Shown here one piece after another: positions 1,466-50,060 of a stretch of DNA of 64,000 nt. Source of the stretch: Coffea arabica (Eukaryota > Streptophyta > Magnoliopsida > Gentianales > Rubiaceae). The stretch spans positions 4,216,001 through 4,280,000 of the forward strand of contig NC_092329.1 of assembly GCF_036785885.1 (NCBI RefSeq), written 5' to 3'. Both the position numbers and the translations under genes were made by a program. The notes under the pieces are model-generated. The model ran no database searches, was not told where the DNA came from, and saw nothing but the letters and a program-made list of their open reading frames with translations. Position 1 is the stretch's first letter. Each line of letters starts with the position of its first letter.

Positions 1466-4400
1466 CTAAGGAATTACATGACTGAGCAAACTATTCGACG
1501 ATGGTGAACTTTGTTCACTTGGCCAGGGATGCTGTACAGAAACTGGGGAATAATCCCTTTCCATGGAATTCAATTTCCCCGTAACAGATACAATAGTTCT
1601 GGTGATTTCTGCCCTCTGTACTGTCAGATTTAGTGGTTTCTCACAAGCAGAAGATGATGAAGAACAAGATGACACCTCTGCTGAAGCTGGAAGACCTGTG
1701 GTGTTCTCTTCAGAATTTGCCCATTTACTAAGCCTAATTTGTTCTAATTCAATGGCCACTTCCATCATTGATGGCCTCATATCCCTGTGAAAAGCAAGAC
1801 ACCTGAATGCCAATTCTGCCACTTTATGCGTCGATGAAATGGTCCAAGGATCCTTATGTGGCTCAAGAAATGGATCAATTATTTCGTGTAGACATCCTTT
1901 TCCTATCCTGTCAACAGCAAGATTTGCCAAGTTTATTTCGTGCTGTGGACGATTAAAGTCCACTGCCTTCAATCCTGTTATGATCTCGAGAAGAACTACT
2001 CCAAAACTGTAGACGTCACTTTTATCGGATAAATGGAAGTGCTGATGATATTGAGGATCAAGATATCCAGGAGTTCCTTGGGGTGCAGTTGAAATGTGGG
2101 ATGATTCTACCATCCCGAGTCTTGAAAGGCCAAAGTCTGCAACTTTTGACTTGTAATTGTAATCCAGTAGTATGTTACTGGACTTTATGTCCCTGTGATA
2201 AATGGGAGGGTGAACTGCATTGTGGAGATAAGCTATAGCCTGAGCAGTTTCAGCTGCAATCGTTATTCGAACAGCCCAGGGTAGTCCATTCCCTTTTTCT
2301 CTTTGCAAATGCTGAGACAGAGTTCCATTGGGCATGAACTCGTAAACTAGAATCTGTTCTCCTTTTTCTATGGAACAGCCTAAGAGGCGAACAAGATTCG
2401 GATGGCTGACAGTGGAAATAAGTTTGATCTCATTTAGTACTTGTTCAGTGCTCTCAGTATCTCTATGCCTGATCCTCTTGATTGCCACCCATTCATCATT
2501 GTGCAGCTTTCCTGAATACACTGTTCCATATGCACCCGTTCCTAGTCTTCTTTTCTCTGAGAATGACTCGGTGGCTTTCTCCACTTCTTTGTAATGATAC
2601 ACAGGAATAGTGATTCCGGTAGCTTTACACAATTCCCGCTTAGTTTTATTTCTGGTTTTTAGCCTCGAACGCCGTCGAACGAAGCAGCATACTAGGCCAA
2701 TACTAACCATTAAAGCAGCACCAGCAATAACACCTGAAATTAACAGTAGGCTTGGCTCATTTTAATACTATAACAAATTAAATTTTCTACGGAAGTTTCT
2801 CAACCCCTTGTCTGTTCAGAGAATTTTTTTTTTCTTTTTATTTACCTCCGACTAGAACGCCAACTCTTGTTGTTCCTCCACACTGGCCTGAAAGGTACTT
2901 AGCCGGGTTGCATCTTGTGGAGTCTGTTAATATAAGAAAACCCTGGAAACAATTAATTTATGAATAAAATAAAGAACAACTCCTCACACAATGAAGTCCA
3001 ATATCCAACAGTCTTGCGGCCGCTTGAGGGGTTATGGGCAGAAACAAACTTGTTAGTCGATTACTGATGGTATATTTTCTGGAATGAAACTGTACACATT
3101 ATTGACAACCAACATGCTGTGAAACTCCAATACAGTTTCCCAGGTACACGCTCGTTCTCATATTCTTGATTACGTTGGTGTTTACATATGTGCCTGTGAT
3201 CCAAAAATTACTTCCAAAAGAAAAAAAGGAATTTGGCTTGCGTTGGCTGATTGGCTCAAAATAAACCTTTTGCTCATTCACATTCTTTTTGTTTTTGGTA
3301 GATCACCTATGTGCGCAAATTATTTAACTTGATACAACAAGAAGTTCAAATAGTTCCCAGGGTCAAATCAAATGATAAGAAGCACTGCAGAATTCTCATT
3401 TAGTGAAAATTGTTACGTATTAACTATTATGGCTATATGGCTTGTGATTGTGCAGTTCCAAGGAGAATCCTATGTCAAAGGAAGTAGGTGAGCAATCCGT
3501 TTCAATTGAAGGTTAATGATTAATCCGCAGTTTTGGCTTACTCAGACTATATTTAAGTGTTTAAGGAATTGTTGGATACCAATACCATAGAGTGGTGGAA
3601 TAGGTTGACTCGACTCATTTCTTAGCGTGTATAGAGAGAAGTGCTGCTGCCAGTGCCAGCTGCATTAGCAGATAACAAAGACCATAATTATCATTATTTG
3701 GTCCTACAAGTACTTCGATGGAACATGATTATGATCCTGTCTTGAACAGCCCTTGATTACCTTGGAGTAATGATATAAAGCAATGCTCGACCATCACTCC
3801 TTCAAGTGCTGGGGAGACATTTTGATTCTTGCCCACAACCTAAAAGAGTTAGTGGTTGTATATGCATTTATTTTGCTGCAATAATAAGACAACCCTAGTT
3901 TCTCTATGCTGGTCAATGCATAAGATAGGAGTGCAGGTTTTCAACATTTCGGGTTTAAACTTTAAAATATGTTGCCTCCACATTAGACCCGCTCGTATGA
4001 GCTTTTGCCTTGTACTAAAATCAACCAGCAATAAATCATCCTATCATTTCAGCATGCATACTTTCTCTGGACGCTGGACCCGTTATTTCTTTTGTAATGA
4101 TAGTCAGATAAGGGAATCCTGACTCATCTTGCATTTAGATTGACGACTCAATTTGGTCAAGGATGCAGGAAGGCTAAAAAAAAAAAACATGGAAGTTTAT
4201 ATTATAATTATACACAAAAGGATCTAGTGAATTTAGCTTACGATCTAATTTCAAATTTAATGTTTGTCTGACATGCAAAATGAAAATTAGTTTCTTATAC
4301 AATCTAATTTTGCAGTTACATGGAAAAAAAAATTAAGCTAGACATGTAATTGGAGTTCATAATTAGCCATCATGGATTCTTCACGGTGACACGGGGATCA

Positions 4401-5307
4401 AATTTTAGCAAATAGAAGGAAAAAACGCAACAGATAATCATCAACTGAATTGAGGCAAATTATTAGTATTCTTGTTTAATCAATTGTCCATTAGAAAAGT
4501 TTCCCTTTTGGAAATCAGAACAGGAGGAAGTTGGCCCTGAAGAAAAAGAAAGCCAGCAGAAGTTTGAAAAAACATACCTCTCCGGCAGCCAACGCCGGCT
4601 ATGTAGCCATCTCCGACGTAGCCGTCTAAGCATTGGCACCGATAGCCCGGCTTCTCATCCGTAGGAGACCATATTTTTGTACAATTGGCATGTATAGAGC
4701 AGTGGCAGTGCCCCTGAAGCCACCAACCCAACTGGACCAACTGAACTGTGAGCGAGACGGATGATGAATTAGTACCATAAGACTCGATTGAAATCGCAGA
4801 AAACAGCGAGGAACACCGATTTTTCACCAAGCTATTGTAGTTCATAAAAAGGCTTTGCTTGCTGGGCTCAGAGTAACAGCTCAAATTACTACTGTTTTGA
4901 GCACCGCAATCAAGCAGCTCGAAATGAGTTAGGACCATGGTGGTTGGAATCACACAAGTTGGAACTGGAGCAGTGCAGTTTTCCATCAGAATTCCGTTAT
5001 GCGAAGTCGGGGCGTAGTTAGGACCGAAGAGATCGTCGATGGCAGACATGGATCGCCCACATTGAGCCTGAAGATTGACCATTATGCTCTCCTGACTTAT
5101 GTCCAGGATAGGAAAGTCATGGATGACCATCGTACCATTTGAGGTGCAGTTTAATTGGATTTGGCAGCCTGAGGAGAATCCGAAGGGGAAGGGAATATGG
5201 TTATATGAAACTGCCCCGCACGACTTTTGGCAAATTGCTGATGCATTTCCAAGTGATGAAAGGCGATACAGGACATACGAGATGATGCTCAGAAATGGTA
5301 TTACCAT
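1466..5307 (-). CDS. WAKL14: Wall-associated receptor kinase-like protein, WAKL14/WAKL20 type
   Basis: Transmembrane Ser/Thr receptor kinase expected at the plasma membrane, with a wall-facing ectodomain. The exons by GT-AG and phase are 5307-4578, 2923-2846 and 2733-1466, giving 691 residues, close to the usual length for WAKL14. The N-terminus (MVIPFLSIISYVLYRL) looks like a signal peptide. It is followed by a Cys-rich GUB_WAK-type ectodomain with CGAVSYNHIPFPFG near residues 30-44 and an EGF-like CQCLDGYVGDGY stretch near the end of exon 1. A short exon (CNPAKYLSGQCGGTTR) leads into a transmembrane helix at about 264-288. The kinase has the glycine loop GTGAYG (334-339), the VAIK lysine (355), HRDIKSSN (449 on) and DFG (469-471), so it looks catalytically competent. 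The start is the only ATG that precedes the signal peptide in frame. The family role in wall sensing and defence is known; the ligand is not visible. Confidence 0.93.
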
Positions 5308-8300
5308 GTTCTTGCAAATGGATGAAATAGTGCTTATTCAGTACTGACTATAGCACATATGCACTGGAGGGATGGATTCTTGTGTTTCATGGAATAAGGG
5401 GACAAGGGAATTCTTGCGATATCAGGAAAGAATCAGTTGAGGTATGAAAGTTTTGTCTCTTTTCGTTTGAGTCGTGTAAACTAAATGCAGATTTTGGTTG
5501 ATAGAGGAAGGATGATTAGAGGAAGAGATGGAGTGAGAGAGCCTCCAACTGTAATGTGGGGTTCTAGATTAGATGGGAAGATAACAAGGTGAAGGGGAAG
5601 TAAATTAAACAAAATTGACAAGATGATGATGCTACTAATTTGTCAATTTGAGGGTGACTTTTGCTCTCTCCACATCTTTATGTATCTTCGTTGAGACTAC
5701 GGATCATATTGACACCCAATAAATGTTTTGGATTCTTTGACTAAAATAGCTTCCATATTTGAACTAACAAGAAAGGATGATGAGAGAAGCAAGGAGAAAT
5801 TTTTTTTTTTTTTTTCATAAGGAAACAAGCAAAGAGATTTTACGTGAGAAGAACGACCGCAATTTCATAAGTTCTAATTATTGACTGGGAAGTCTTTGAT
5901 TTAGGTGCCTCTTTGGTCGCCCCTCTAGTACATTAGTCCACGTTAACAAAGCTAGGATTTTAGATTATCTACCCACCTGAAAATTAAAAAGAAAACACCC
6001 CACAAGAGGGGGAAAAAAAAGAAGTATCTATTATTTAGATAATCGAGAATAAATTCAGCTAGGATACACTTGATTTTTTAAATTGAATTTTCTTTCGTTT
6101 CTTTTAAGCTAGGATACACACAAATTGTGTGGCATGCAATAGGAAGAGTCAAACATTCAACTTTAATGTGGGGATAGATTTGTTAGACCTTAAAATGAGC
6201 CATTATATATTTGGCTTGCCATGCACTAGATTCTACTAACATTTATTATGGCAGGAAAATTGCTGGTAATAACCGTGTATTTGGATTCCTCATTTCTGAG
6301 TTCTCATCAAGCAAGTCAAAAAAGGGTGAAGCCGTGGATTCCCATTCCCTCTCCTCCCTTCCTAGTCAACAATTCAAGTCGTCGTGGTGGGTGTAATTGT
6401 TGGTCCACGTCCTCTCCAAGAATGCCAGTCACAAAAAATTTCTGGGATCGTCGTCACAGTTCAAACCCCCACCTCAGATCCAAAAATTTTTAATGCATGC
6501 AGGCCGATTTCAATTTGCAATACACTGCACGGCATTGTAGCATCTATTGCTTCTGTGGTGCACCCAAATTGAGGTTCTCCTTTTAACACTTTGCACAATC
6601 AATGCCCATGATATATTATGCTGTATGACCTTTGCTGAACTTGAAATGCTTCTTTATATCTTTTCCATAATCCAGTACTGTGTCAGATTTCCTTTTCGAC
6701 AATTACATTTTCAGAGTGTAATGCCAAATTAATCCTATTAAAGTGGGGCACATAACCTTAAAGTCTTAAAGAAACAAAATTGGTGTCTCAAAAAATGTTG
6801 TACACTAGGTTAAAAAGGCTGTAACATAATAATTCTTTCCGGTGCACTCATCCAGGATGATAGGCTACTACAGTATTAATTTCAGGTTTACTAGGTATAG
6901 AAGAAGAGCCCACAATGATCCGACAACGTTTAGTTGATTAATATATATATATGCTAGGCCCTTGTTTTGCTGATGCTGGCTTTTGTTTGGACTTTTCTTA
7001 TGGCCTGAAGTGATTTTCACAGTAATTTGGTTGAAAATGCTATTAAAATGGCATCTCCTGTTCTATTTGTCTCACAGTTTTGGACAAATCCAGTATCTTA
7101 AGGCAGAGAATTCTAAACATTTCACCATCAGAAACGGTGTAGATGAAGCTTAATTCTCATAATTAGTAATTATGATGAGGTTCAAATATTCAAAGCCAAA
7201 CACCGGGGAGGGAAGGTTGCTGGTGGTCCTGGACTCACGGGTTAGAGAATTTCTTTTATCAGTTTGTCCTTGATGTAATAATGCGATCACAGGGGACAAT
7301 TTAATTAGCTAGAGCGATATTTCATCCAAAGTTCCAAACAATCATTTTGTGGGAACCAGTTTCTGAATCATATCAGCGCAAGTGATATTTTCCTGAATCA
7401 TGATGGATCAAGAACATGCGTTTAAATTGGTTATATCAATTATTTCTTGAGTTGCTCTTCTATATAATAATCTTCTTGATGGTAAGTATTGCAATACATA
7501 CGGTATAGTATTTTTGGTGCAGAAATATTATGCCATCAATCTTTTGGTGCAAAAACATGTACAGTTATAAAACATGAATACCTAACTGGTTTGGGTAGGT
7601 GGGAAAAGAAAGGGTAGTATGAGAAGACTATGTGCGAAACATGGAAGTCGGTCATAAAAGAAGGAATAAAAATAATATTTAGTACGTATGCATATACATC
7701 TTAGGATGATAAAGCAAAAAAACTTTTCACCATAAAGATTTCTAGGATAGCGTTGAGAAGGAAAAAAAAATTCTCAGGGATACCTCAGCATGGGAGTGCG
7801 TTGAGAATTTAGCTGGTTAGAAATTTTCAAGAAATTTTAATGAAGACGGAGGGTAAGGACTTAGAACTTCTAACCTTAGACCAGCCCGAGAGGGACAAAA
7901 AGACCATCTTAAGGGTCACTTTTTCCTTGATTAGTCAAATTTTTAGTCAAAGTTGCCGTGTTTTGTTCCCTCTCCAATTTTTTTTTATTTTTTATTCGGT
8001 GCAAGATTATTAAAAGAAAATAAAGACAAGCGCGCTTATTTTGTTCACGAATCTAACCTCATCAGCAAGCAGAGGAAGAAAAAGAAAATTCTTTGTTAAT
8101 AGATGCAAAATATTGGCTTGTTTAGAAAATCAGTTGCAAAACTGGACACAAGTTCTTTGAGTGTGCACCACCATTCAAACAGAATTAATGAGGATTGAAA
8201 CGGCAAGAAAGGTTTTCGTCATCTAAACTATATTTTGGTATTCAGTACACTCTTTTTCCTTATTCTACATTTTGACAGACTGTGTCTAAGTGCCTGCTGT

Positions 8301-14000: not shown

Positions 14001-15298
14001 GGGCTTGTTTGGAAGTGAGTTTTTCGGCCAAGTTTTTTAACAACTTTAGCTACAGGAACCCAAAAAAACTTATCAAATTTTTTAATCTATACACTTCAAA
14101 ATATCTAATACACAAAAAACTTCTATCTTTCTTCTTCTTTCTCCCCCCACCCCATCCACCATACCTTCATCGCCGGCCACCACCTCTGCCGCCGTTTCCG
14201 GCGCCGGCCACCTATTCCGGCACCGGCGTTCCCAATTTTTTTTTTCCTTCCTTTCTCCCTCCCTGGCCAAACTCCCCCGACCGATGCAGTAGCAGCAGTT
14301 ACTTTCCTCCTGCTCTGGTACTTAAAAACCTTTCATCTATCGAGAAAACCTACCCAGATTCCATCGAGCCTGCCTAGCTGACTTCTAAAGAGGTTGCATT
14401 CCTCCTTGTAGGCAGAGGCAGCATGAAAATGAAAGTCAAACACAAGCAAGTCAATCCAGCAGAGGATGAAGATGACCAGTTCGTTTGAAAGAAGAGATCT
14501 TGATCAAATGGTCAAGCAGAAAGCACAATTAACTTCAGTCACGCCAACGCTACGGCTGACGGGGGAACAGGGGAACAGAGGGGGTGGGGATGGCGGGGCA
14601 GAGGGGGTGGCGGGAAACGGGAAACGAGAGAGGGGAGGGCTGGCGGGGGGAGGGGGTGGCGTGCGGGGGAAGGGGCTAGGGGGTAGCGGGGGCCAAGCTG
14701 GCGGGGGGAAGGGCTGGCGGGGGGAGGGGGAGGCGGGGGGCAGAGGGGGCCGGGCTTGCAGAGGGGAGGGGGAAGGGGCAGAGGGGCTGGGGGGAAGGGC
14801 TGGCGGGGGGAGGGGGAGGCGGGGGGCAGCCGGGGCCGGGCTTGCAGAGGGAAAGGGGAAGGGGCAGAGAGGCTGACGGGGGAAGTAGGATGGTGGGGGG
14901 AAGGGCTGGCGGGGGGGAGGGGGAGGCTGGGGGCAGCGGGGGCTGGGCTTGTAGAGGGGAGGGGGAAGGGGCAGAGGGACTGGTGGGCGTGGCGAGGGAA
15001 ATGCAGAGCAGAGGAGAGGAGTGGCGGGAGGGGGAAGGAAGAAGAAGAAGAAAAAGAAAGAGAGGAAAGAAAAGAAAAAGGAAAAAAAGAAAAAGAAAGA
15101 AAAAGAAAGAAAAAAAAAAGAAAAGGAAAAGAAATTCACCTCACAAAAACTTTTACAAAATTTTTTATCTTACAAAAACTACTACAAAAAAATTTTTCAC
15201 CTTACAAAACTTCTACAAAATTTTTTCAAAAACTTCTACAGTGCACTACAATAAAGTTTTAGACAAACTCCCAAAAAACTCAGGTTCCAAACAGGCCC
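14001..15298. mobile_element. Tourist/PIF-Harbinger-like element with G-rich core, 1298 bp
   Basis: The left end GGGCTTGTTTGGAAGTGAGT and the complement of the right end, GGGCCTGTTTGGAACCTGAG, are inverted repeats. TAA flanks both sides (13998-14000, 15299-15301). There is no transposase. The core contains a G-rich minisatellite (14559-15030) and a purine tract (15030-15135). The TIR GGGC[CT]TGTTTGG is the classic Tourist-like end. Confidence 0.72.
14559..15030 (+). repeat. G-rich minisatellite with strong G-quadruplex potential
   Basis: Almost pure purine with dozens of runs of three to seven G. A unit beginning AAGGGCTGGCGGGG restarts at about 14709, 14795 and 14901 (spacing 86 and 106). 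Several GGGCTTG[CT]AGAGG sub-units recur within it. Frames of 100-200 codons here on both strands are compositional. Confidence 0.85.
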
Positions 15299-18356: not shown

Positions 18357-18815
18357 GTATCTCTTTTGGTCCTATACCTGTCAGCCTGCATGTCCAACCA
18401 CAATCTCCTCATTAAACTACTTAAACCACCCCAACGAACGCAAACTTCCGACCCGGATTATGAGGACCCGACAAATTCCTCTGCACGCAAGAATTACGTT
18501 TCTTGCTGACATGTGTCGACACCTCATTGGCCTCCACTCCCGCCTTCAAGACCTTTTATTCATTTATTTATTTTAAGTCATCCCCTACAAAGTCTCCCTC
18601 CCATTCCTTCCTCCTCTTCATTCTCCAATCTCCATTGCCTCTATCCCTTGTCTAGTCTCTCATCAGTTTTCCCTTCCCTTTGATCATTTTCATATCTGGC
18701 CTTCTCTCTCGATTTTTGTTAAACCATTCGTCATTTTTTTTGGTTTAGTTTTCATGGTTGAAATACACAACATCTTTTTTGAATGATATAAGAAAAGGAA
18801 GGAGGAAGGCCAAGA

Positions 18816-20150
18816 ATGTTTTCTGACACCTCAAGTTTGCCTCCAAAAATAGGCAACATGACCCATTCGGACCCCAACATTTGCTCCGCAGCCACAGATG
18901 ATGAAATGGCCGCCCGGCACAGCAGCTTCTCAGGCTATGATGTTAGCCGGTTGAGCGGCGAGATGTCCCCCATGACGATGTCTCCCTGGAACCAAAATTC
19001 ACTTTTTACCCAGTCCCCATGGTCCAAATTTGATGAAAATGTGCCACAAAATGTCCCTCAGAATGGCCTCATCGGTTCGCTTGTTCGCGAAGAAGGCCAC
19101 ATATATTCATTGGCCGCGAAAGAGGACCTTCTTTACACGGGTTCGGACAGCAAGAACATCCGTGTTTGGAAGAATATGAAGGAATTTACAGCATTCAAAT
19201 CCAACAGCGGCCTTGTTAAAGCCATTATCATCTCCGGGGACAAGATCTTTACGGGTCATCAGGATGGAAAGGTTCGTGTGTGGAAGATTAATCCTAAGAA
19301 CCCCAGTGTCCACAAGCGTTCAGGGACTTTACCAACTTTCTTTGATATCTTCAAAGCCTCAATGAAACCTAGTAACTATATCGAGGTCAAACGTAAACGG
19401 ACTGCCCTCTGGATCAAGCATGTTGATGCCATTTCTTGCTTGAGCATGAACCAAGAACAAGGGCTTCTTTATTCTGCCTCGTGGGACAGGACGTTTAAGG
19501 TTTGGAGGGTCGAAAACTCGAAATGCCTGGAATCTGTTAAAGCCCATGATGATGCGGTTAATTCCGTTGTGGCCAGTCTGGAAGGATTGGTGTATACAGG
19601 ATCCGCCGATGGGACTGTTAAGGTTTGGAGAAGAGAATCCAGTGGTAAAACAGTAAAGCATCATTTTATTCAAACCCTCTTGACTCAAGAATGTGCAGTG
19701 ACTGCTTTAGCTGTGAATAAATCAGGATCGGTGGTTTATTGCGGCTCATCAGATGGGCTTGTCAACTTTTGGGAACGTGAGAAGGAATTGACCCATGGTG
19801 GTGTCTTAAAGGGTCACAAACTGGCCGTCCTCTGCCTGACTGCAGCAGGGAACTTGGTTTTCAGTGGATCGGCAGACAAAACCATATGCGTCTGGAGGAG
19901 GGAAGGAAATGTTCATACCTGTCTCTCTGTCTTGACTGGTCATACTGGACCAGTCAAGTGCCTGGCGGCTGAGGAGGACAAAGACTCCTCCACCGGTGAT
20001 CAGCGGTGGGTGGTTTATAGTGGAAGTCTTGATAAATCAGTTAAGGTCTGGAGCGTTTCTGAGACAGCACCAGATTTGCGCCATATGGGTAACATGCAAC
20101 CAGGCCAGGGTGATTCTCCTTGGGACTCGATACCTTCAGCAAAGTATTGA
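18816..20150 (+). CDS. JGB: WD40-repeat protein JINGUBANG-like
   Basis: An intronless gene for 444 residues, about the length of Arabidopsis JINGUBANG, a WD40 protein reported to restrain pollen germination and tube growth. Residues 1-90 are a polar leader rich in Ser, Met and Pro. Residues 91-435 form a seven-bladed beta-propeller. The repeat ends can be read in order as IRVWKN, VRVWKI, FKVWRV, VKVWRR, VNFWER, ICVWRR and VKVWSV, with repeated YTGS/YSAS/FSGS strands before them. The start follows a pyrimidine-rich leader (18590-18720), and ATG lies in the context CCAAGAATGT. WD40 proteins of this kind are scaffolds; partners cannot be read from the sequence. Some members are labelled generically as U-box-type or vegetative incompatibility HET-E-like, but the intronless structure and leader fit JGB best. 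Confidence 0.92.
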
Positions 20151-22200: not shown

Positions 22201-25200
22201 TTAGTGAGAAAGCCTCCGAGAATGCTTTCTTCTTGATGTAGTATTTATACCTGGATTCAATCCATTGATGTGCCCGCTTCTACTACCGATTGAGTTTGAA
22301 TCCAATACCAGAGGAACAACTTTACCCCCTCCTTCTAGTATTCTGAGAACCTAATATAATTTGAAAAAGTTATCAGGGCTTAAATTTCCACCTTTCTTAA
22401 ACGAATTAGAAAAAATAGCTAGACAGAAAGGCAAGACTAGTTCTGTCAACATGAGTGCAGAGGAGAGAATGCTACGGGTGATAACCATATTAAATTAACA
22501 CAGGGAGGGGAAACCTTTGACATTGGGGGCCGTAGATCAGGATCTTTCTGTAGGCACAAGGATGCAGCATTGCTCATTGCCCGTAGTTCATATGGGAAAC
22601 TTTGGAGCTCATAACTAACCAAGCAGGGATCCAGAAACCTCTGTTTATCTGCTAAAGAATGGCTTTCTTCCAGAGTACCCAAAGGGTGAAAGTTCTTGAA
22701 CAGAAATTGCTGTCCACTGTAATTTGGCAAGGCACCAGTTTTTTCACCCGTAATTAGCTCTAATAACACTAGGCCAAAAGCATATATGTCAACTTTCTCT
22801 GTAACTTTGGCATCAGTGAAGTACTCTGGTGCAAGATACCTACAGATGTCAAAGAAATCAGCCAAATTAAGTTTGATTCACAAAACAAGTTCAGAAACAT
22901 GTCAAGATATATAACTGAGGAAAATTCAACACACGGATTAAAATGAACGCTTCTACTACATTATTCTTTTAGAATTTAAGGTAGTCATAAATGAATAATA
23001 TATAGTGACAAAACAAAGTATTAAATTACCCATATGTTCCAATAACTTGCTCCTCATCACAAAGTTCCCATTCACGATGTAGTCTAGCAAGACCAAAATC
23101 TGCAACCTGAAAAGAATGCACTATATAATTGGGATGAAAATGATTATTTGACAGAGAAAATACACAAACTGTCAATAAAAAGCCAAAGTAGAGAGGTGGG
23201 TGCATGCTATTCAAAGATCTCAAATGGAATAGATTTTGCTAATTCAGAAAATACTTGTAAACAGATTACTCTGATTTAATCACAGTTGCATACTAAATTA
23301 TGCAAACTAAATGCTTCTAGCAATCATTTACCAGAGGTTCAAAATCATGGGTCAGGAGGATGTTGTGAGGCCTCAAATCTCTATGTATTATACATCCCAC
23401 CCTGCAATCTTCATGGAGATATCGTAAGCCTCTTGCTGTTCCAATAGCTATTTTGAGTCGCATGTCCCAATCAAGAATTGTATCCAAGTTTCCTATCAAT
23501 TTTAAAAACATCATCCAAGTCAGAGTGCTGTAGTTTGCTATAGTTGAGTAACTGAAATGGGGACTCCACTCTTTTATGTATCAACATGAAAGGGAACAGA
23601 AAATACCATGTAAGTGTAGATCCAAGGAGCTGTTGCATATGTACTCATATACTAATAATCTCCTCTTCTGCTCAACGCAAAATCCAATCAATAGCACAAC
23701 ATTTCTATGTTGCGCACAGCTTAAAACTCGCACTTCCCTACAGAAATCAGCGTCCCTTTGAGATCCAGAAAACTTCAGCTGTTTAATTGCGACAACTAGT
23801 CCATCCCTCAAAATACCTCTGTAAACCAAACCAAACCCTCCTTCAGCTAGGAAATTCATATCTGAGAAACCGTCTGTAGCCTCCTCTAGCTCTTCATAAA
23901 GGAATTGCCTAGGGGGCTTTCCAAAAGCTGGTGCCTTCTGTTGACATTGTGAACATAAAGGAGGGGGTGTTGACAAAGTTCTGCACAAAGAAACTGCATC
24001 TCTGATGTTCGAGTTAAATTCAACATCTTTACCATAGGTTAGATTGTGTTTATGCCCTTCTGTCAACATACATGGCACAAGGTGGTGATGGTCATCTCTC
24101 ATAGGTAGTGCTGTATTTTGCAATCCATTTTGGCAGTCTCCAATTTCTTGGGCTTTCTCGCTTATCTTGTGGTTCTGAGGAATCCAAAAGATTCTTTTAT
24201 CATCCAAACTTAAATTTTCTGAGCTCATAGAAAGGGTTACAGTCCTTTCCTCAACTGAATCTGGCAAAGCAAGTGGATGACCAAAGCCATTAGGTTTATG
24301 GCTAGGAGTGTGCTTGCCCGTAGTTAGTTTTTCATAAAGGGGATTTTGTTGATACACAAGGAATTTAGAAGTGGCAGTGTCAGGACTGGATAATGAAGTT
24401 TCTCCTGAGGTTTTTGTGTAGGACGTGCTTGGCTCCTCAGGGCTACTCACAGGAGTCGAATGCTTCATCCTCAGTCCATGCAACTTCTGCACATCCAAAA
24501 CAGGTGAAGAAGCAGCAGAATAAAAAGGGGTTTGAATTTCGTCTGAGCATTCAAGATTGAGCCTAAGGACTTTTGGCTGTGAACCCTTCATAACTACAAT
24601 GTTGCAGTGAAGCTGATCCATGCAATGCCGAAGTTCTAGCTTCAGTTTTCTGGCTAAGGAGAACAAAATTTTTGAGTGAGTGTTGTATTTCTGAGCAGAC
24701 AGTCACATGAACTAGGCGATTAAATGTTATTTTCCATTAAGGTGATGAGAGAACAAGATGGCTAAGAAATAAAATTTGATTAACAACCCTTAGAAACTCA
24801 TGTAACAGCTTAGGCAGACATGCAAGGTTGAGGGTTGATAGCAACATAAAAATACATGTAATTCAAATCAAAAAATAACTAATGGTATCCATCTTGATGA
24901 CAATATGAGCAAGCATTGATCATGTCATGTCCGAAAAATGCAACTCCAAAACAATGGCTCCGATGCTTCTAGTCAGGTCTAAGTGACATAAGTGGTCTAA
25001 AATGCAGGTAGTTAGCCAAACAAGGTTAACAACTAAAGAAATCTGCCACAGCAGAACTCTGAATTGCATTGAAGGGAAAGACATTAAGATAATGACTCGA
25101 ACAGACCAGCAAGTAAACTAGAACCAACTCAACCAATTATTAACACACAGGAGATCCTTGATTAGAATTTATTCAGATTCTAGTCTAAAGTAAAATCAAC

Positions 25201-31046: not shown

Positions 31047-32956
31047 TTAATAAAGATTAGGAGACAGGCGCGGTGCAATTAGCACATCAAGAGGCGTGGC
31101 TTTGGCATTTGTTAATCCAGCGCTCTCAGTCATATCAACCGGTTCATCGCTCGGCTTTGAGATGTCAAATGCATGAAGCAAATCTGCTAAAATCAGGTGT
31201 ATCATTTGAATGCCAAAATGCAATCCAGGGCAAATTCTTCTGCCTGCGCCAAAGGGGACCAGTTCGAATTGCTTTCCATTGATTTCAACACCTTTATGAG
31301 TCGAAAGGAACCTCTCAGGCCTATATTCGGATGGATCATCAGGCCATATGTTTGGATCCCGCTGGAGTTTCCACAGGTTGAATATCAGCCTCGTGCCTTT
31401 GGGGACATGATAATTACCACCACCGAAAGTGCAGTCTTCATTGAAGTCCCTAGTAACGCCCAGTGGAGAAGCTGGGTACAGCCGAAATGTCTCTTTGACA
31501 ATGGCTTGAAGGTAGCCCAGATTGTTGATGTCTGATTCTGTTACTCGTCTATCCTTGCCAATATGGAGATCTAGTTCTTCTCGAGCTTTTCTCAGGACTT
31601 GAGGATTGTTCAACAAGAGAGATAGTGCCCATGTTAGCACAATTGCTGTGGTGTCACTCCCACCGGACATCAAATGATGTCAAGTCCGAATAAGTCAGTA
31701 TAGCATTAGTAGAAACAATAGTACTAACTATTTTCTTTGCCATAAATAAAGGGAAAAGGGAAGAAAAAGAAGAAGAAGAAAAGTCTCGTGCTACCAGTAG
31801 GATTATAAACTCCAATTTTCATGTAAGTCTATTTCATGTTAGATTCTTTAAGAAAAGCCTAGGATGGTTTGAGCTAGCGGAGCAAATTAAGGCTATATTG
31901 TAGAGCATTAGATGAAAGAAAATGTAAGCCAAAAGAAAAAAAAATAAACGAAGACATTTCGCTTAAAATAGTGCATACTAGGCACGTGGCCTTGACAATG
32001 GTGTCAGCATCATAGCCTCGAGCAAGGTTCATTATTTCTCCTTGGCCACCTTGGGTGACCGAGAGCATTACGTCCATGAAGTCTTGTTGGCCATCACCCT
32101 TGCCGGACTCTTTTCTCCGTTTATGCTCCTTCAGCCATCCCTCAACAATCTGATCCATTTCTTTAGCAGTTTCCTTCAGTTTCTTCTCGTGTCCTTCTAA
32201 GTCTAACCAACCCAAGAAAGGAACGAAGTCGGCCACCACATATATCCCAACTAAATGAAAGAAATCCCTCGCCGCCTTCTGGCACTGCCTGGCTTCTTTC
32301 TCCTCACTAACATCTATTGCTCCCCCAAAGTATCTTTTTCCGGCAATCATTCTTATAATCACGTTTAAAGTCAAGCCCCCAACCCACCGCTTCATATCAA
32401 CCAAAGCACGACCCTTTGATGACTCCCTGTAAAGCTCTTTCACGAAAATCCCAGTTTCAGAAACTCTCACGTGCTTGAGGAGCTCGAGCCGGCGAGCAGA
32501 GAGCAATTTTTGGGAAATTATTTTGCGGATCTCCCTCCAAAATGGGCCGTAAGGAGCGAAGCCAAACATGGCATAGTTGTAGCCGAGGAGTTTAGCTGCT
32601 AAACAAGTTGGTCGTTGTGATACAACCGTATCCTGGGAGGTGAAAAGCTCCTTCGCCATTTCCAGGCTACTGACTACCACGGCCCTGTGAACTCCGAGTC
32701 TTAGGGTGAATGATGGCTCGTATTTGTCAGCCATGCCTCCCAATATTATGTGGGCGAGCTGTGAGCCTCCAGCTAAGAGGTGGAGGTGACCAATTATGGG
32801 CCATGCGCCGCCTGCTTCAACCGGTAAACAGCTTTTGATTGGTCTAACTTCAGCCTGCTTAGAGTTGGCAGACCTCCAAAGTAAAAAGGAGAGAACAAAA
32901 GCCAATACAAGTAGCCCAACTACTGCAGCCCTAGGGTATAAGAGAAGCAATTCCAT
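31047..32956 (-). pseudogene. CYP82: CYP82-type cytochrome P450 with lost intron acceptor (possible pseudogene)
   Basis: Exon 1 (32956-31979, 326 residues) and exon 2 (about 31676-31047, about 209 codons with the stop) are both open and encode a full microsomal P450. It has an N-terminal membrane anchor (VVGLLVLAFVLSFLLW), a Pro-rich hinge, SGGSDTT in the I helix, ETFRLYP (ExxR), YRPERF and the heme loop [10 protein letters not shown]. The donor is normal (CCTA|GTATG). At the position where the paralogue at 45-47 kb has ACAG|GGT, this gene reads ACAT|CAT, and no usable in-frame AG lies nearby. Correct splicing is therefore unlikely. A 985-bp Mutator-like element sits 83 bases upstream of the ATG. 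CYP82 enzymes hydroxylate or demethylate specialised metabolites (for example nicotine and phenolics); the substrate cannot be read here. If a rare acceptor works, the protein would be about 535 residues. Confidence 0.85.
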
Positions 32957-33027: not shown

Positions 33028-33038
33028 TATAAAACTAG
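33028..33038. repeat. Left target-site duplication of the 985-bp MULE
   Basis: TATAAAACTAG, identical to 34024-34034. On the minus strand it overlaps the TATA-like motif of the CYP82 gene. Confidence 0.8.
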
Positions 33039-33118
33039 AGAAATTTCTAAAATTATGATGAATTTTAAAAAAATTCTACAAATGGGGCATTTTGAGTGTG
33101 GGGTTCTGTCCAAGGGAT

Positions 33119-33171
33119 CTTCGCATTCAGCAAATGCGAGTTGAGGGAACTCGCATTTGCTGAATGCGAAG
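33119..33171. repeat. Perfect 24-bp-arm hairpin inside the MULE
   Basis: Arms 33119-33142 and 33148-33171 are perfect reverse complements around a GAGGG loop. The core is TCGCATT...AATGCGA, which recurs in four more hairpins in the same element. Confidence 0.9.
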
Positions 33172-33225
33172 TCTCTTGAATTTTCCTCCAACGAAATCCA
33201 AAAAAAAAAAGAAAAAAGAAAACTA

Positions 33226-33281
33226 GACCTCGCATTTATGAAATGCGAGGTCAGTTACCTCGCATTTATGAAATGCGAGGT
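33226..33281. repeat. Two tandem short hairpins with AAATGCGAGG arms
   Basis: 33226-33252 has 12-bp arms (GACCTCGCATTT / AAATGCGAGGTC) around ATG. 33257-33281 repeats it with 11-bp arms around the same ATG loop. Confidence 0.9.
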
Positions 33282-33887
33282 CACTGTGCTCAGACCGCAG
33301 ACCGCAGAATGCGATCTCATCTCAAAGCTCAGACCGCAGAATTCTAGCGTGATGCCAGGAATACCGGAGATGGCACGGGCGTGTTACTAGTGCTGCTTAC
33401 ACCTCCCATGTCCTTGGTCTTGTGGAGAAGGAATGTTCCAGACAGGATAGTCACAAAACCACATACTTCAGAGACAATTTGCGATGCACAGCCACGAATT
33501 TGAAAGCCATTTGCGAAGGGAAAGAAAATGTGCAGCGCAAAGGGTCACAAAATTGGTTGGGGATGACTGCTGAGGTAGAAATGGCAGCTGGTTGGGGTGC
33601 AAATGGCGTCTGGTGGAAGCTTAACAATGGCGAACAACAACCGACGAGAAAGAAAGAGATTGAGGGATTTTGGGCAATTTCCTCTTGGAAGCTTGGACTG
33701 GTGTCTAGCTACGCAAAAGACGAGAGAGTGAGCTGGATGTGCAAAGTTTCGTTCCAATTTCTGCCCCTCTACTTATGGATTTGAATGCCGAATGTTTGAC
33801 GTAAAGAACGGAGCTCTGTTTTTGGGTTTAGGTGAAAGAGACAGAGAAATGCGAGGTACTTTTTTTTTTAAAAAAAAAATGTATCCT

Positions 33888-33940
33888 AGCTCGCATTTGC
33901 CGAATTCGAGCTAAGTAAGTTCACATTTAACAAATGCGAA
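33888..33940. repeat. Two imperfect hairpins near the right end of the MULE
   Basis: 33888-33912 (AGCTCGCATT / AATTCGAGCT arms) and 33920-33940 (TTCACATTT / AAATGCGAA arms, one mismatch) repeat the motif of the left-side hairpins. Confidence 0.7.
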
Positions 33941-34023
33941 CAACCCTATTTTAGAAACGCCTCCACCAATAGCCTTACTTGTAGAAACTCTTTTTTTTTT
34001 CATCATAATTCAAGAATTTACTC

Positions 34024-34034
34024 TATAAAACTAG
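34024..34034. repeat. Right target-site duplication of the 985-bp MULE
   Basis: TATAAAACTAG, identical to 33028-33038 and directly adjoining the right inverted repeat. Confidence 0.8.
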
Positions 34035-41050: not shown

Positions 41051-41940
41051 GATCAATACTCTAAAAATATCCATCTACTATTTTTTTCATTTTTTTCCCT
41101 TGGAAATTACTTTTTGCTTCCGGACAAAATTGAAAGATCCACGCATAAAAATGTGTTTCGTCCTAGAAGATATTAATGATTTTTTTCGGCAACAATAGTA
41201 TTTGTATAAGCTAATCTATTAACATTTGTATATGGGAATTTATATAATCTAATATATCCTATTCTAGTAGAGGGGCTGTATAAGAGGATTTGTATAAGGG
41301 ATTCTAGTAGAGGGTAGAGGAAGGGGGAGTATCCTATTCTAGTAGAGGAATTTTCAAAGCAAGTGCGATTTGAACCCCGACTTACAGCTTAAAGAGGGGT
41401 TTAGTTCCCTTTTGGTGGCCACCGACCCAAAGTCAGTGATATTATTGATGATATTTCCAGATTAATAAATGTTTCCATTGTAGCTTTCAACTTTCAACAA
41501 TAGAGATTAATGGTCAAGTCAGTGTTATTTCCGTCGTGGTCTAGTTGCCAACTTGACCTCCCGAGGGTGGTGAACTCAAGATTGGGCAACATATTGGAAG
41601 AGACATATGGTGGAGTGAATCAGTTCCGGCACCCTAAGACAGTCCAATCAAAGAGGAGCAGCAATGTGTTAAAATTAGTACTAGTTATATACTTTTTAAA
41701 GTGGGGGAAAAAGCAAACATGTGAGCCTAAACGTTTTGCCTCGAGAGACATTGAATGATACAGCCTTGATCCTCGAGAGACGGTAATACACGTGTAGTTA
41801 CCTTTGCAGCCTTGTCTTGTGATAACATCTCAATGAATTTTCTTGACTTGGGTGGCACCGTATATTTGTCCCTGGTGACAAGTCACATGAAGATCTGTTC
41901 AGCCATATGTCAAGAATCAGATATGAAGATCTAGAAGAAA
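41051..41940 (+). repeat. CYP82-linked segmental repeat, copy A (with SINE insertion)
   Basis: Matches 49397-50060 in direct orientation with scattered differences, for example 'gtcctagaagatattaatgat', 'aatggtcaagtcagt' and 'ttgacttgggtggcacc'. Without the SINE it is about 620 bases. No coding function is seen. Confidence 0.75.
41181..41437 (-). mobile_element. SINE inserted into one copy of the CYP82-linked direct repeat
   Basis: Minus strand: B-box-like GGGGTTCAAATCGC (about 41365-41378), several CTACTAGAAT[AC] words and a terminal A run. A 12-bp target duplication with one mismatch (GATATTAATGAT 41169-41180, GATATTATTGAT 41438-41449) flanks it. The paralogous segment near 49520 reads straight through and is the empty site. 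Confidence 0.72.
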
Positions 41941-44122
41941 CGAAGCCTCTTCAAAATGGTATAGCGGTTTCTACCATTTCTTTGGTATTAGACTGACACA
42001 ATGGTACATGGTATTCTGCCTCACATCAAGTCAATAGGAACCAAAAGACAATTGACAAGGCTGACTTCACCCTGAAAATGAAGCACAAAATAAGAGAGTA
42101 GAACTAAAAGATTACCGAAAAGCTGATAAAGAGGTGGGCTGAGAATTGCATCACATGATAGGCAGGTTATGAATGTGAATGTTTAGTTATATATTAAAAT
42201 GATAATATTTCAATAAAAAAAATTTGGTCTCCAAAATTTATAATTTTAAGCACATTTAGAACAATTGATGGAACTTAACATTCATTAACAGTCAAAATCG
42301 TTTTAGCAATAAAATCCTATTTCAATTTTTCCTATACTATAGCCTCTTAATTTTTGTTCTGTATATCATATGTGTATTATTATCCAATTTAACTTATTTA
42401 ACGAAGATATACTTTTTAGCTTAAATGATAATGTTGTGCCTATATTATTCTATATAGAGTACATAGTGGTTAACGACACTATGTTATCTAATTTGAATTA
42501 TTTATCTATAGAACCAAAAAAGTAAAACAATCAAAATATATTTCATAAAAAAAAACTATAGTAGGTCAACTACATATAACCAAGAGACATTTAAATTACT
42601 TTGAACTCGTGCTAAATTGCTCTCGTAGTGGGGCACAATTTATTTCCTTTTCTCAGTTTTTTGTCTATTAAATCCAATGTTTCAATGGAAAGTTTTAAAA
42701 TAGTTACTTTGCTCTTTGTTTACTTTAATATTTTACCACAACCCTCCCCCCGATTACCTTAAGAATTTTATTGAATGATTCAAACAATTATACAAAATAT
42801 TAATTTCATCTTAAATTCAATTGATAATCTATTAAAATTGAAAAAAGAAAACAAATCTGATTTACTTATAGTTCATATTCTTTATAGTTTGAATGGATAT
42901 CTAATTGAACGTTTAAATATCAATACAAGTAACAAAAAAAAAAAGAATTCATTATCAATTAATTCTCCATAATGCAAAAGCATACATACATATATAATGC
43001 TACATTTGGGACCAGTCATGCAAGAGTAAAAGTCTATGAGAAACAAGTAGGATGAATACACAAAATAAAAGAATAAAAGAATAAAAGAAAGAAGTTTCCT
43101 GAACCTTTGCACATTTTCAACATAATTTCAATCTAATTTGCATTTCTTTTCCTTTGAAACCGTTAATATCACTATTTAAAATCTAAGATACCATGATGAT
43201 CCAAATTCGAAACATTGCTATAAAAAATGCAAAGTCAAAACTATTCAGTAGTGGCAACTTGACTTTGATCTTTAATCATCATTTTTTTCGTCAATTTACT
43301 AAATATGCTTAAGATTTGAAACACTGGGGACCAAATTTGTTTTGATCCAAGCATTAATGATCAGTCCTACACACATGCAGAGTATTATAAACAAGAATTG
43401 TATTTCTTCCAAATTTTGGATATATGTTATGTATTGATTTAAATTACAACTTTTAAACTTATTTTCTTCATAATGGTTGGTTAGTGATAATTTAGTTTTA
43501 ATATTATTGTGATATCATTTTCTAATAAAGTGGAGGTGATTTGTCACTTAATCATAAATTTTTATCTCCTTTTGCCTAAAAATATGTTCAAGTTCGGGAG
43601 TACCAATAGTAAAAAGTTTTTATGTTATTTGAAAGAAAATTATTCATTCATTAGTAAATTCGGGCATGTCATCTTGTATTATATTATCCATGAAAATATA
43701 TGGAATACTTTTAATGTGAAGATTGTTTGTTGTCCTACTTTTAGAATAGACAATGAGCAGTTATATTTTTGTATTTACACCTATTAAAAACACTTCTTAA
43801 CTGTATCACTACATAGTTTAATTAATACGAATATTTGATTTCAAGCATGTATACATTAGTACAAATAGCATTAGTATTACTAGTGATAAAGGGCGCACTC
43901 AATCTATGTACAATTTAAACAATCACTTTTTATATGGAAGAAATTAGTATAAAATTTTAATAAACAAAAAACTTTGATCTTTTAAAAGTTTTTTTAACAT
44001 TATTTTAATGAACTTGGTAATTATAATGTTTGTGGTTGGTTATTGGTGAAAGTTAGTTGTGGTATTGGTTGACAATACATAAGCAACATCTTAATCAGAT
44101 GATAAAAGTATAATTAAGTGAT

Positions 44123-44277
44123 GGATTAATCTTTCCTACACTGACAGTGTATACACTATCAACGTTTGGATGAATTACAAATATGCAAAATTTGAATTTA
44201 AAATTCAACTTTTACATATATGTCATAGATTCAACGGTGATAGTGTATACACTGTCACTGTATATAAGATTTGTTCG
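44123..44277. mobile_element. MITE family A, copy 3, 155 bp
   Basis: Inverted ends: GGATTAATCTTTCCTACACT at the left and the complement of AGTGTATACACTGTCACTG...AGATTTGTTCG at the right. Flanked by TAAGTGAT on both sides (44115-44122, 44278-44285), which extends to 9 bp with one mismatch. Confidence 0.72.
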
Positions 44278-45481: not shown

Positions 45482-47197
45482 TTACGAGTAAAGGTGAGGA
45501 GGCAGGCGTGGAGCAACAAGGAGTTGGAGCGGAGTGGCTTTGATGTTTGTCAATCCGGCGCTCTCAGTCATATCAACCGGTTCATTAGAAGGAGTTGAGA
45601 GGTCAAAAGCATGGAGCAAATTGGCCAAGACTAGGCGTAACATCTGAAGCCCCAAATTAATACCAGGGCAAATTCTTCTACCAGCCCCAAATGGGATTAA
45701 TTCGAAATGATAACCTTTCACATCAATATGCTTATGTGTGGTGAGGAACCTCTCCGGCCTGAACTCCAACGGACCATCATGCCATACGTTAGGATCCCTC
45801 TGGATTTTCCACATGTTCAGGATTACTCTTGTGCCTTTTGGAATATGATAGCCACCTATAATACAGTCTTCACTCAATTCTCTGGTGCCCCCCAGTGGCC
45901 CGGGTGGATATAGTCGTAGCGTTTCTTTGATGATGGCTTGGAGGTAGACCAAATTACTAATATCTGATTCTGTAACCCGCCTCTCCTTGCCGACGTGCAG
46001 GTCTAGTTCTTCTTGAGCCGTCTTCAAGACTCGAGGGTTGTTCATTATCAAAGACAGCGTCCATGTTAGCATCACTACAGTGGTATCACTCCCACCAGAA
46101 ATCAAACCCTGTCAAGTCCAAAAGACAGCAAAATTTTGAACTCACTTGCAGTTTTCTTTAAACTAAACATATTCTAGATATTGATCAGCTGTAAAGAAAC
46201 AAATTGAGAATAAGCAAAATTAAAGTATATATACTGGACTTACTAAGCAAGTAGCTTTGGTGATAGTATCAGCATCGTAACTAGCAGAAAAATCTGCACC
46301 TTCTGTGAGTGAGAGCATGACGTCCATGAAGTCCTGATGATCATTAGTGGCCTCGCCCGACTGTTTCTTTCGACGATGTTCTTTCAACCATCCGTCGGCT
46401 AGCCGGTCCATCTCTTGAGCATTTACTTTCATTTTCCTTTCGTACCCTCCCCAGTCCAACCATCTCAGATAAGGAACAGAGTCCGCCAGTACAAACAGCC
46501 CAGTTAAATAAAAGAACTCCCTCATCACCTTTTGGCACAGCTTTGCTTCTTTCTCCTCGCTAACATCTGTTGCCCCAAAGAACCTTTTCCCCACAACCAT
46601 CCTAAGGATCACGTTTAGATTCAAGTCTGCAAACCACTGCTTCATTTCCACCAGGACAGGGCCTGATGAAGAATTCCAGAGATTGTAAAGATCTTTGGTG
46701 GAAAGGTCAGTCTCAGAAATCCTGACGTGCTTGAGGAGCTCAAGGCGTTTAGTGGAGAGTAGTTCGATGGAGATTACCTTACGCATCTCACGCCAATAAT
46801 CACCGTAAGGAGCGAATCCAAAACTGGCATAGTCATAACTTAGGAGTTCGCTTGCCAAAGAATTCGGACGTGATGCTGCAGCCAAGTCATGGGTGGTGAA
46901 TATCTCCTTTGCTAGTTCCCAGCTGCTTACAACCAGGTTTTTATGCACTCCTAGCCTGATAGTGAAGGCTGGTCCATATTTCTCGGCCAGGGCTGCCAAG
47001 GTAATGTGGGGAAGCTTTTCTGGACCTCTTCCTAAGAGGTGAAGGTGGCCAATAATAGGCCATGCACCGCCTGCTTCTGGTGGCACTGAACCATGTTTTT
47101 TGGCATCTTTGTTGAAGAAAAAGTAGACAAGGAAGAAGGAGAAAGCAAGCAGTCCAACTGCAGCAGCATTGAGGTGCTGGAAAGACCATTCCATCAT
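45482..47197 (-). CDS. CYP82: Cytochrome P450, CYP82 family, intact copy
   Basis: Two exons, 47197-46244 and 46108-45482, with a phase-0 intron (TTA|GTAAGT to GACAG|GGT), giving 526 residues, normal for CYP82. The order is: membrane anchor ([18 protein letters not shown]), [14 protein letters not shown] hinge, [10 protein letters not shown] (C helix), SGGSDTT (about 322-328), ETLRLYP (380-386), FRPERF (434-439) and [10 protein letters not shown] (458-467) with the heme-ligand Cys at about 465. The I helix has Gly-Ser-Asp-Thr-Thr rather than the more common Ala-Gly-x-Asp-Thr. The start is the first ATG of an ATGATG pair; upstream in-frame codons lack an ATG. The enzyme would sit on the ER and use P450 reductase. 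It lies in the same orientation as the damaged paralogue at 31-33 kb and about 13 kb from it, so the two are probably tandem duplicates. Substrate unknown. Confidence 0.94.
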
Positions 47198-47282: not shown

Positions 47283-48114
47283 TAGTACTAAATAAATGTT
47301 GAATTAGCAGAGTGTATGGAAAGATTTCTTTTATCAAGATAATTCCCACGTTGTCCCTTTACTGTGATGTATTTTATAGTGGAGTCATTTCGTCAAAAGT
47401 TTAAAGAATTTAGTCTGTGCAGAATTAGTCTGGGAGAGTGATGGGATGTCACGAGGCACTTATTTATTTATTCATTTATCTTGGGCAACAATTATCTGTT
47501 GGAAACAAAAGGCTGTGGAAAATAGTATTGAAAACCAAGTGTAAGATTGCATGTTGCTAGCTAGTAGTCAAGGTTGGAATTCGGATGCATCTGTATTTGG
47601 TCTAATCTTGACTTGCGGCTTTAACTATGCCTCAATTTTTACAACCTTGACAGGAAGCAAATTACTACTACCTCTGTCCCAACACTGACAGTTTTGACTT
47701 TTTGTTTCAAATAATTTAAGAAAGATTAGCTAGCTTTATTGAAAACATAAATCTAGATTACTGGAGTGGAGCATGACTAATTAATTTTACATTAAATAAA
47801 TTAAATTATACTCAATAATAACCTATATGAAATATGAAATTTTTGAAAAATTACACGTTAATTATAAATTTTTAATTAAAAAATAGACTATAATTTGAGA
47901 CGAATAAAAAATAAAAACAACTCTATTAAAGCGGGACAAAGGGAATAGTTTAGAGCTAAGAGGCCATAATTACTCATCATCATAAAAATCGCGCGTAGAG
48001 TCCCGAAACCTTCCCGTATTTTCTTTTCTTGATTAATCAATTACAAGGCAGGCCCATCGCCATACTTGATGACAGCTAAAAATCGCTGGTGTCGTGATAC
48101 CTCGTATTTTCTTT

Positions 48115-48270
48115 GGATTAATTTTTCTTACACTGACAATATATACACTATCAATATTGGATGATAGGTAACCATGCAAAATTTAAATTTAAAATTCAAC
48201 TTCTGCATATATGTTATGAATCCAACGATGATAGTATATATGACGTCAGTAGTGTAGGAAAGATTTACTC
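48115..48270. mobile_element. MITE family A, copy 4, 156 bp
   Basis: Starts GGATTAATTTTTCTTACACT and ends TAGGAAAGATTTACTC. An exact 9-bp target duplication ATTTTCTTT lies at 48106-48114 and 48271-48279. The interior has the same AAATTTAAATTTAAAATTC word as copy 3. Confidence 0.78.
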
Positions 48271-49396
48271 ATTTTCTTTTCTTGATTACATTCTTTAACA
48301 GGTAAAGAAGGGTTTAACAAATCAAGATGCTCTCAGTAAGTAGAATTTTTTTTAATGCAAAACAAGACAGAACTTGCAGAGTCATCATCATTGACTCGCT
48401 GTCACTCTTGATTTTGGTCTACAATTTACAAACGAAACGAAACCAGACCATAATGCCTGATTAATTAATTGTAACTTTTACATGGGTTATCTATCTAGTA
48501 GGTGGAATTCGGAGTAACCCCAAATCGGTGCTAATGGTGGTGTTTAACTTCCCCTCATTTTCAGCTGGCCATGGAATTGATATTCAAAACTGATGGCTTG
48601 ACTTCTGAGTTCGGACTTGCAATCAGCAACAAAGTATGTGTGGACTGCTAAGTTATCTTGTGTCGTGTAGTAGCAGCAGCATCGTCTCAAGAGGATACCC
48701 TCACAATCTTAGACTAGGACTGCTTGATGCTATTGTCGTATTACGGCCATAGGATAGCCCCATGGCGAAGTCCAGAAGTACATGGGAGCTTGTGTCATTG
48801 TGTGTGGAATTTTGTCACGGAATGGGCCAAACTACGCTTTAAGGAACCTTGAGACCGGAAAAACTGGGCTTTCTTCTGTCAACTTAACTAGTTTGAAGGG
48901 ATGACAAAGTCAAGAGCCTAGCATGGGAATATGAACTGCTACAGAGAGATTATAGTGAAAATTGTCTCAAAAACAAGCCTGGAGCTTATCCAGAAGAACC
49001 CAGCAGAGAGCCCGCATCGTCACCTCATTTGGGCAAATTAGAAAGAAGCGGTGGGATTCCAAGCTGCAACACCAGTGCAGCGAAGGAAGTCCGTGCGCCG
49101 ACCACCACCTAGCGAAGGAACTAAAGTTCGGAGCCCAAAATTATGCAAATAATGTACCAAATCTGCAGCACCGTGGATTTAAAAAACTCTATCTAAAACT
49201 ATACTATCCCTTCCAAACAACGTCATTCATTTTTTCTTTTTTAAGCGCTATGCATCTTTATGGTTATTCAAGGGCATGGCATAAATCTTCTGGAATTTAT
49301 TTTGTGGTGGTGGGAGATCATACTGAGTGCTAAAGCAAACCAATTTTTCCAACATAAGAGATAAACTAGAGATGCCAACCTATATTTGTCTATCTG

Positions 49397-50060
49397 ATCA
49401 ATACTGCAAAAAACGTTCATCTACTAGTTTTCTCATTGCTTTTTTTTTTCCCCTAGGAATTACTTGTTGCTTCCAGACAAAATCGAAAGATCGGCACATA
49501 AAAATGCCTTTCGTCCTAGAAGATATTAATGATGATACTTCCAGATTAATAAATGTTTCCAGTTGTAGCTTTCAGGTTTCAACATTTGAGATTAATGGTC
49601 AAGTCAGTAGTATTATTTGCGTCGTGGTCCAGTTGCCAGCTTGACCTCCCGAGGGTGAACTCAAGATTGAGCAGCATGCCGGAAGATGCCAACATTGACC
49701 TATTTGTACTATTACTATCTAGCTTCTTCTCCATTTTCCCGGACATATGGTGGAGTGAATCAATTCCGGCACCCTAAGACAAGTCCAATCAAAGAGGAGG
49801 AACAATGTGTTAAAATTAATGCTACTACTTATATAACTCTTAAAGAATTAGAAAAAAAAAAAAAAATGTGAGCCTAAACTTTTTGCCTCGAGAGACGGTA
49901 ATACATGTGTAGTTACCTTTGTATCCTTGTCTCCATGTTGATAACATCTCAATGAATTTTCTTGACTTGGGTGGCACCATATATTTGTCCTTGGTGGCAA
50001 CTCACATGAAGGTCTGTTCAGCCATATGTCAAGAATCAGATGTGAAGATCTTGAAGAAAA
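49397..50060 (+). repeat. CYP82-linked segmental repeat, copy B (empty site)
   Basis: Direct repeat of 41051-41940, lacking the SINE. It starts about 2.2 kb upstream of the ATG of the intact CYP82 gene. Short open frames in it are not conserved between the copies. Confidence 0.75.

Follow-up and report, generated by a model that had tools for sequence, protein, structure and literature searches.

The P450 gene near 31 to 33 kb of the window (the whole 64,000-nucleotide stretch of Coffea arabica DNA analyzed here), hereafter gene A, is most probably a loss-of-function copy that was inactivated when its only intron lost its AG acceptor. We take gene A to be CYP82-like, which is plausible; the analysis itself covered membership in the P450 superfamily only. 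Assignment to CYP82 calls for an identity of 40% or more with named members of the family together with a place in their clade.

The minus strand of the window carries two complete-looking P450 genes, A (32956-31047) and its intact paralog B (47197-45482); both are interrupted by a single phase-0 intron in the same position (Table 1). A tblastn search of the window with all four exons found no third P450 copy, the other matches having E values of at least 0.4. All four exons matched PF00067 (cut-off, 22.8 bits), and the scores of A and B were nearly the same. The DNA of exon 2 of gene A encodes the I-helix motif (A/G)GxDTT as GGSDTT, ExxR as ETFR, PERF, and the FxxGxRxCxG heme motif, to use the customary P450 motif names. 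An earlier note on this DNA had described both exons as open with the ExxR, PERF, and heme motifs; the open frames and the motifs of exon 2 bear this out. In a PDB search, the best solved relative was isoflavone synthase (8e83).

Residue identity between A and B is 55% for exon 1 and 70% for exon 2. Over the full length, dN and dS were 0.24 and 1.18 by NG86 and 0.25 and 0.99 by YN00, and dS ranged from 0.8 to 1.2 depending on the exon and the method. The dN/dS ratio between the two genes of ∼0.2 (NG86) points to a long history under selection.

Table 1. Features at the gene A and gene B loci (positions in the window; a slash marks an exon-intron boundary)
Feature	Positions	Strand	Details
Gene A exon 2	31047..31676	(-)	209 codons plus stop, open; PF00067 211.3 bits
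Perfect inverted repeat GACATCA-TT-TGATGTC	31666..31681	(-)	Spans the lost acceptor; 7-bp arms, 2-nt spacer
Changed triplet across the intron/exon boundary	31675..31677	(-)	TCA in A, GGG in B
TGA in the exon 2 frame	31680..31682	(-)	One codon upstream of the old junction; stop-to-stop frame from 31679
Gene A intron	31677..31978	(-)	302 nt; donor CTA/GTATGC; 3' end ACAT, not ACAG
Gene A exon 1	31979..32956	(-)	326 codons, ATG at 32956, open; PF00067 84.7 bits
Left 10-bp target site duplication, TATAAAACTA	33028..33037		Overlaps the TATA-like TATATA of A (33031-33026)
Mutator-like (MULE-like) element	33038..34023		986 bp; imperfect terminal inverted repeats
Right target site duplication, TATAAAACTA	34024..34033		Identical 10-bp copy
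Gene B, intact paralog	45482..47197	(-)	Exons 47197-46244 and 46108-45482; GT-AG intron 46243-46109, 135 nt; PF00067 82.8 bits (exon 1), 209.3 bits (exon 2)

Read directly on the minus strand, the junction is GGACTTGACAT/CATTTGATGTCC in A and GGACTTGACAG/GGTTTGATTTCT in B, and the two align ungapped; the intron of B ends as GGACTTGACAG/GGTTTG, and A has GGACTTGACAT/CATTTG. The change from AG to AT that the earlier note reported in this copy is real and the AG is absent, but the description understated the difference. Three adjacent bases differ (31677-31675), namely, the last base of the intron and the first two bases of exon 2, and the first codon of exon 2 is His in A and Gly in B. The note's further remark that there was no length change holds at the boundary but not for the introns as wholes, which are 302 nt in A and 135 nt in B. 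The ten intron bases that precede the acceptor, GGACTTGACA, are the same in A (31687-31678) and in B (46119-46110) at a dS of ∼1; this identity could reflect chance, constraint, or gene conversion. Candidate branch points in the intron of A were CTGAC (31698-31694) and CTAAT (31709-31705). These branch points, and the strength of the donor, were assessed by visual comparison to consensus sequences (CTRAY for the branch point).

Gene A has no AG acceptor that joins its two whole exons in frame, as a functional gene would. Going upstream from the junction, the first AG is met 47 nt away, ending at 31724, in agreement with the note's claim that none exists for dozens of bases. An upstream AG was rejected as the acceptor, since the TGA at 31682-31680 bars any AG further upstream in the exon 2 frame. 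The stretch between this TGA and GGSDTT contains no AG either, and therefore no AG acceptor keeps GGSDTT in an open frame. When the normal donor was joined to the AGs within 120 nt of the junction, a premature stop followed in 13 of 13 cases (5 upstream and 8 downstream), and the eight downstream cases confirm that such AGs lead to stops in the frame set by exon 1. With the intron retained, the frame continues for 34 codons into the intron and ends at 31874, a stop after 360 residues, while splicing to one of the weak AGs of exon 2, whose G is at 31657 or 31646, gives a stop after 326 or 329 residues. A transcript of gene A, if made, would probably keep the 302-nt intron or use one of these weak AGs, and retained or mis-spliced products with the normal donor would be truncated before ExxR, PERF, and the heme cysteine. 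We infer that gene A makes no working enzyme.

A U12-type intron was also considered and rejected. Introns of this type have the donor (A/G)TATCCTT and the branch sequence TTCCTTAAC near the acceptor. The donor of A, GTATGCACT, is unfit by this standard, and by eye no matching branch sequence precedes the site.

The earlier note had offered a choice among a newly dead gene, a retained intron, and a noncanonical acceptor. The outcomes predicted above favor a dead gene with intron retention or cryptic splicing. A dead copy is also favored a priori because P450 pseudogenes are common and minor noncanonical splice sites are rare in plants. For grapevine, 579 P450 sequences are reported, comprising 279 complete and 20 partial sequences, 11 putative pseudogenes with a single lesion, and 269 pseudogenes, with CYP82 found in large clusters (PMC6023221). 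Minor noncanonical sites are put at 0.09% of plant splice sites (PMC6310983), and the class termed "others" is put at 0.534% for plants (PMC7072748). Like gene A, the single-lesion grapevine copies are complete, with start, stop, and motifs and one fault, and the definition given there names a wrong exon-intron border as one such fault; gene A differs in that its lesion is a three-base change completing an inverted repeat and in that a transposon lies at its promoter (PMC6023221). By this comparison, gene A falls in a recognized class, that of P450 copies with one faulty exon border. Our literature search found nothing on splice-acceptor loss in plant P450s, which is not proof of absence from print.

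Continued removal of the intron through a GT-AT acceptor, either at ACAT/CAT or one codon further on after CATCAT, is very unlikely. It would give a P450 of 535 or 534 residues, with His or nothing at the position of the Gly of B, and would suit the fact that both exons are open and P450-like, that sequences judged by eye to be candidate branch points precede the site by 18 and 29 nt, and that the last ten intron bases, GGACTTGACA, equal those of B despite a dS of ∼1. Minor noncanonical sites do exist in plants, some of them supported by reads, and the 3' site is described as the more flexible end, but the same sources list pseudogenes as well as errors of sequencing, assembly, and annotation among the origins of such sites (PMC6310983, PMC7072748). 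The sites described (PMC6310983) resemble that of A in having a GT donor and a 3' end other than AG; A's site, in contrast, is most simply dead. The prior for such an acceptor is very low, and a literature search gave no frequency for GT-AT introns in plants. In addition, a scanning spliceosome would be expected to reach the AGs at 31657 and 31646, and a short hairpin formed by the changed bases covers the site. Less likely still is that gene A is alive, with the acceptor rewritten by one template switch and the tandem CATCAT still used next to intact branch points, in which case a full-length P450 with an altered entry to the I-helix would be made.

The lesion is known from one assembly, and a fault in the assembly or consensus, or an intact A on the other chromosome copy, would mean that the species still has the gene. 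In grapevine, too, P450s with a single lesion were marked as potential errors or as genes that still function in some varieties (PMC6023221), and a heterozygous null allele at A is possible. We nevertheless consider this explanation unlikely as a whole, because three adjacent substitutions that occur without an indel and complete a perfect inverted repeat would be an unusual sequencing error. An alternative donor used together with a cryptic acceptor in exon 2 could instead restore the frame and yield a shortened functional P450, whether enzyme or regulator. AG acceptors were paired with donors over a scanned range from 90 nt upstream to 110 nt downstream of the normal one. Of the pairs in this range, 61 reached the natural stop; the donor was GT in 12 and GC in the others. 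The most consensus-like pair by eye, AAG/GTGGCC at 32049 with CCACAG/CAA at 31646/31645, deletes 34 codons and leaves 501 residues in place of 535. All 61 pairs, however, place the acceptor 20 nt or more into exon 2 and so remove at least the GGS of GGSDTT. Activity would not be expected of a P450 that lacks this portion of the oxygen-binding helix, and we rejected rescue by these pairs as scarcely credible.

On the preferred reading of a dead copy, the form of the lesion suggests how it may have arisen. With TCA at 31677-31675, the sequence around the junction is a perfect inverted repeat; with the triplet of B, pairing is confined to the four outer bases of each arm (by eye). Among the 64 possible triplets at this position, the observed one alone gives arms of at least 7 bp at a spacer of at most 10 nt, and 2 of 64 and 4 of 64 triplets reach 7-bp arms at spacers of at most 30 and 60 nt, respectively. 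Template-switch mutations in yeast were called where a perfect inverted repeat had arms of at least 7 bp and a spacer of at most 70 bp (PMC8604942). The arms of 7 bp and the spacer of 2 nt in A lie within these limits, with the differences taken against paralog B. As in A, the yeast mutations are adjacent substitutions inside such a repeat; they were polarized on a strain tree and lie in coding sequence, whereas the change in A is not polarized and lies in a plant splice acceptor (PMC8604942).

How often such arms occur by themselves was assessed in both loci. At a spacer of at most 10 nt, 20 of 1907 triplet positions in the A locus and 10 of 1713 in the B locus lie in arms of this length, and half of the 20 in A belong to GACATCA-TT-TGATGTC itself (manual count of its two arms). 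A and B differ by 26 runs of at least three adjacent bases. Two of these runs in A and none in B have an arm at a spacer of at most 10 nt, and two in A and one in B do so at a spacer of at most 70 nt; the two runs in A are the acceptor triplet and one in exon 1. This amounts to a weak association of adjacent differences with inverted repeats. A templated origin is proposed because the changed triplet makes the stretch a perfect inverted repeat: the three-base change would be one event, copied from the neighboring TGATGTC by template switching. As a post hoc reading of a change that is not polarized, this origin is tentative, and we hold it to be possible, with the balance somewhat against it. 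In RNA folding, 31 nt over the lost acceptor gave -9.9 kcal/mol (z = -2.1), and 7 of 200 shuffles folded at least as well. With 81 nt the A site was unremarkable (19 of 200), and nothing notable was found at the B site (95 of 200).

The loss had also been called recent in the earlier note, for which the open exons are the sole support. Paralog B cannot date the acceptor change because the split between A and B is old, and a recent tandem duplication that could have dated the lesion was rejected at dS values of 0.8 to 1.2. The 1608 coding bases of A are free of stops and frameshifts, which bounds the age estimate at ∼0.011 to 0.023 neutral substitutions per site or less at 95%. In years the bound is 0.8 to 12 million, to an order of magnitude only, given assumed mutation rates, indel shares, and transition bias. 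The calculation also takes the acceptor loss to have preceded any other lesion and selection to have been absent from then on. This suggests that the acceptor loss is young, and the Pfam fit of A, equal to that of B, counts against a long-dead gene.

Comparisons of exon 2 lean toward faster change in A, though not significantly and with equal Pfam scores. Residues unique to A outnumbered those unique to B by 15 to 10 with isoflavone synthase and by 12 to 5 with ferruginol synthase as the reference, and the relative-rate test, made on exon 2 only, was not significant (chi-square of 1.0 and 2.9). In columns where the other three sequences agree, A alone differs in 7 (2 of them gaps) and B alone in 2 (1 gap). 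The PDB score of exon 2 against isoflavone synthase was 160.4 bits for A and 179.1 bits for B.

A Mutator-like element begins 82 bp upstream of the ATG of gene A. Its inverted ends are GAGAAATTTCTAAAATTATGATGA and GAGTAAATTCTTGAATTATGATGA, and its 80-nt ends (33039-33118 and 33944-34023) gave a local alignment score of 25 compared to a maximum of 17 in 1000 shuffles. A 10-mer common to two shuffled 50-nt flanks arose in 127 of 20000 trials. Mutator-like elements make target duplications of 9 to 11 bp (PMC4334395), and the 986-bp element has both terminal inverted repeats and a duplication of this size. The 143-codon frame inside it had no Pfam match, and the 64-kb window held no second copy, just two short matches outside the element (25 and 33 nt). 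Paired palindromes of the TCGCATTTnnnnAATGCGA type lie inside the element at 33119-33171, 33226-33282, and 33891-33939 and include a 24-bp perfect inverted repeat and a tandem 30-bp unit. Allowing at most 3 mismatches, the window contains 15 matches to TCGCATTTnnnnAATGCGA, whereas 0.8 would be expected; six places in the element, each counted on both strands, account for 12 of them.

In maize and rice, such elements are reported to peak just upstream of transcription starts, and maize promoter Mu insertions changed expression in none of four cases (PMC7337890). The element at A is like these insertions in its terminal inverted repeats, its 10-bp duplication, and its place in the proximal promoter; it differs from them in having no transposase match and no further copy in the window (PMC7337890). 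Its insertion at the TATA-like sequence may have changed expression, before or after the acceptor was lost, and from its position the element is a possible contributor to the decay of gene A.

Elsewhere in the window, two pairs of repeats with 80 to 87% identity flank gene B (41051-41940 with 49396-50059 and 44122-44249 with 48114-48240) and are possibly old transposon pieces. Strongly purine-rich tandem arrays occupy 14600-15130, with G-rich units of 16, 86, and 193 bp followed by A-rich units, and produce long open frames on both strands that are probably spurious. Other plant genes lie within 1469-5337, where a kinase frame (1469-2761) stands near a weak EGF match below the cut-off (4483-5337). 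One open frame encodes a WD40-repeat protein (18792-20147), and a further kinase piece (23584-24702) lies within 22446-24702, which also holds the frame 22446-22877. Searches of the 64-kb window for Rfam families (at gathering score) and for tRNAs gave no match.

On the dead-copy reading the finding is of use chiefly for annotation, where a gene finder would either report gene A as two fragments or impose an incorrect intron. If the templated origin is true, gene A would be a clean natural case of a quasi-palindrome mutation that destroyed a splice site in one step, and point-mutation models would score such a one-step three-base change as three events. Should the GT-AT border turn out to be in use, gene A would provide a rare testable example of a minor acceptor, set in an enzyme gene that is intact in other respects. 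On the best reading, that of a loss-of-function copy, gene A would be one more lost plant P450 copy, an instance of ordinary gene loss.
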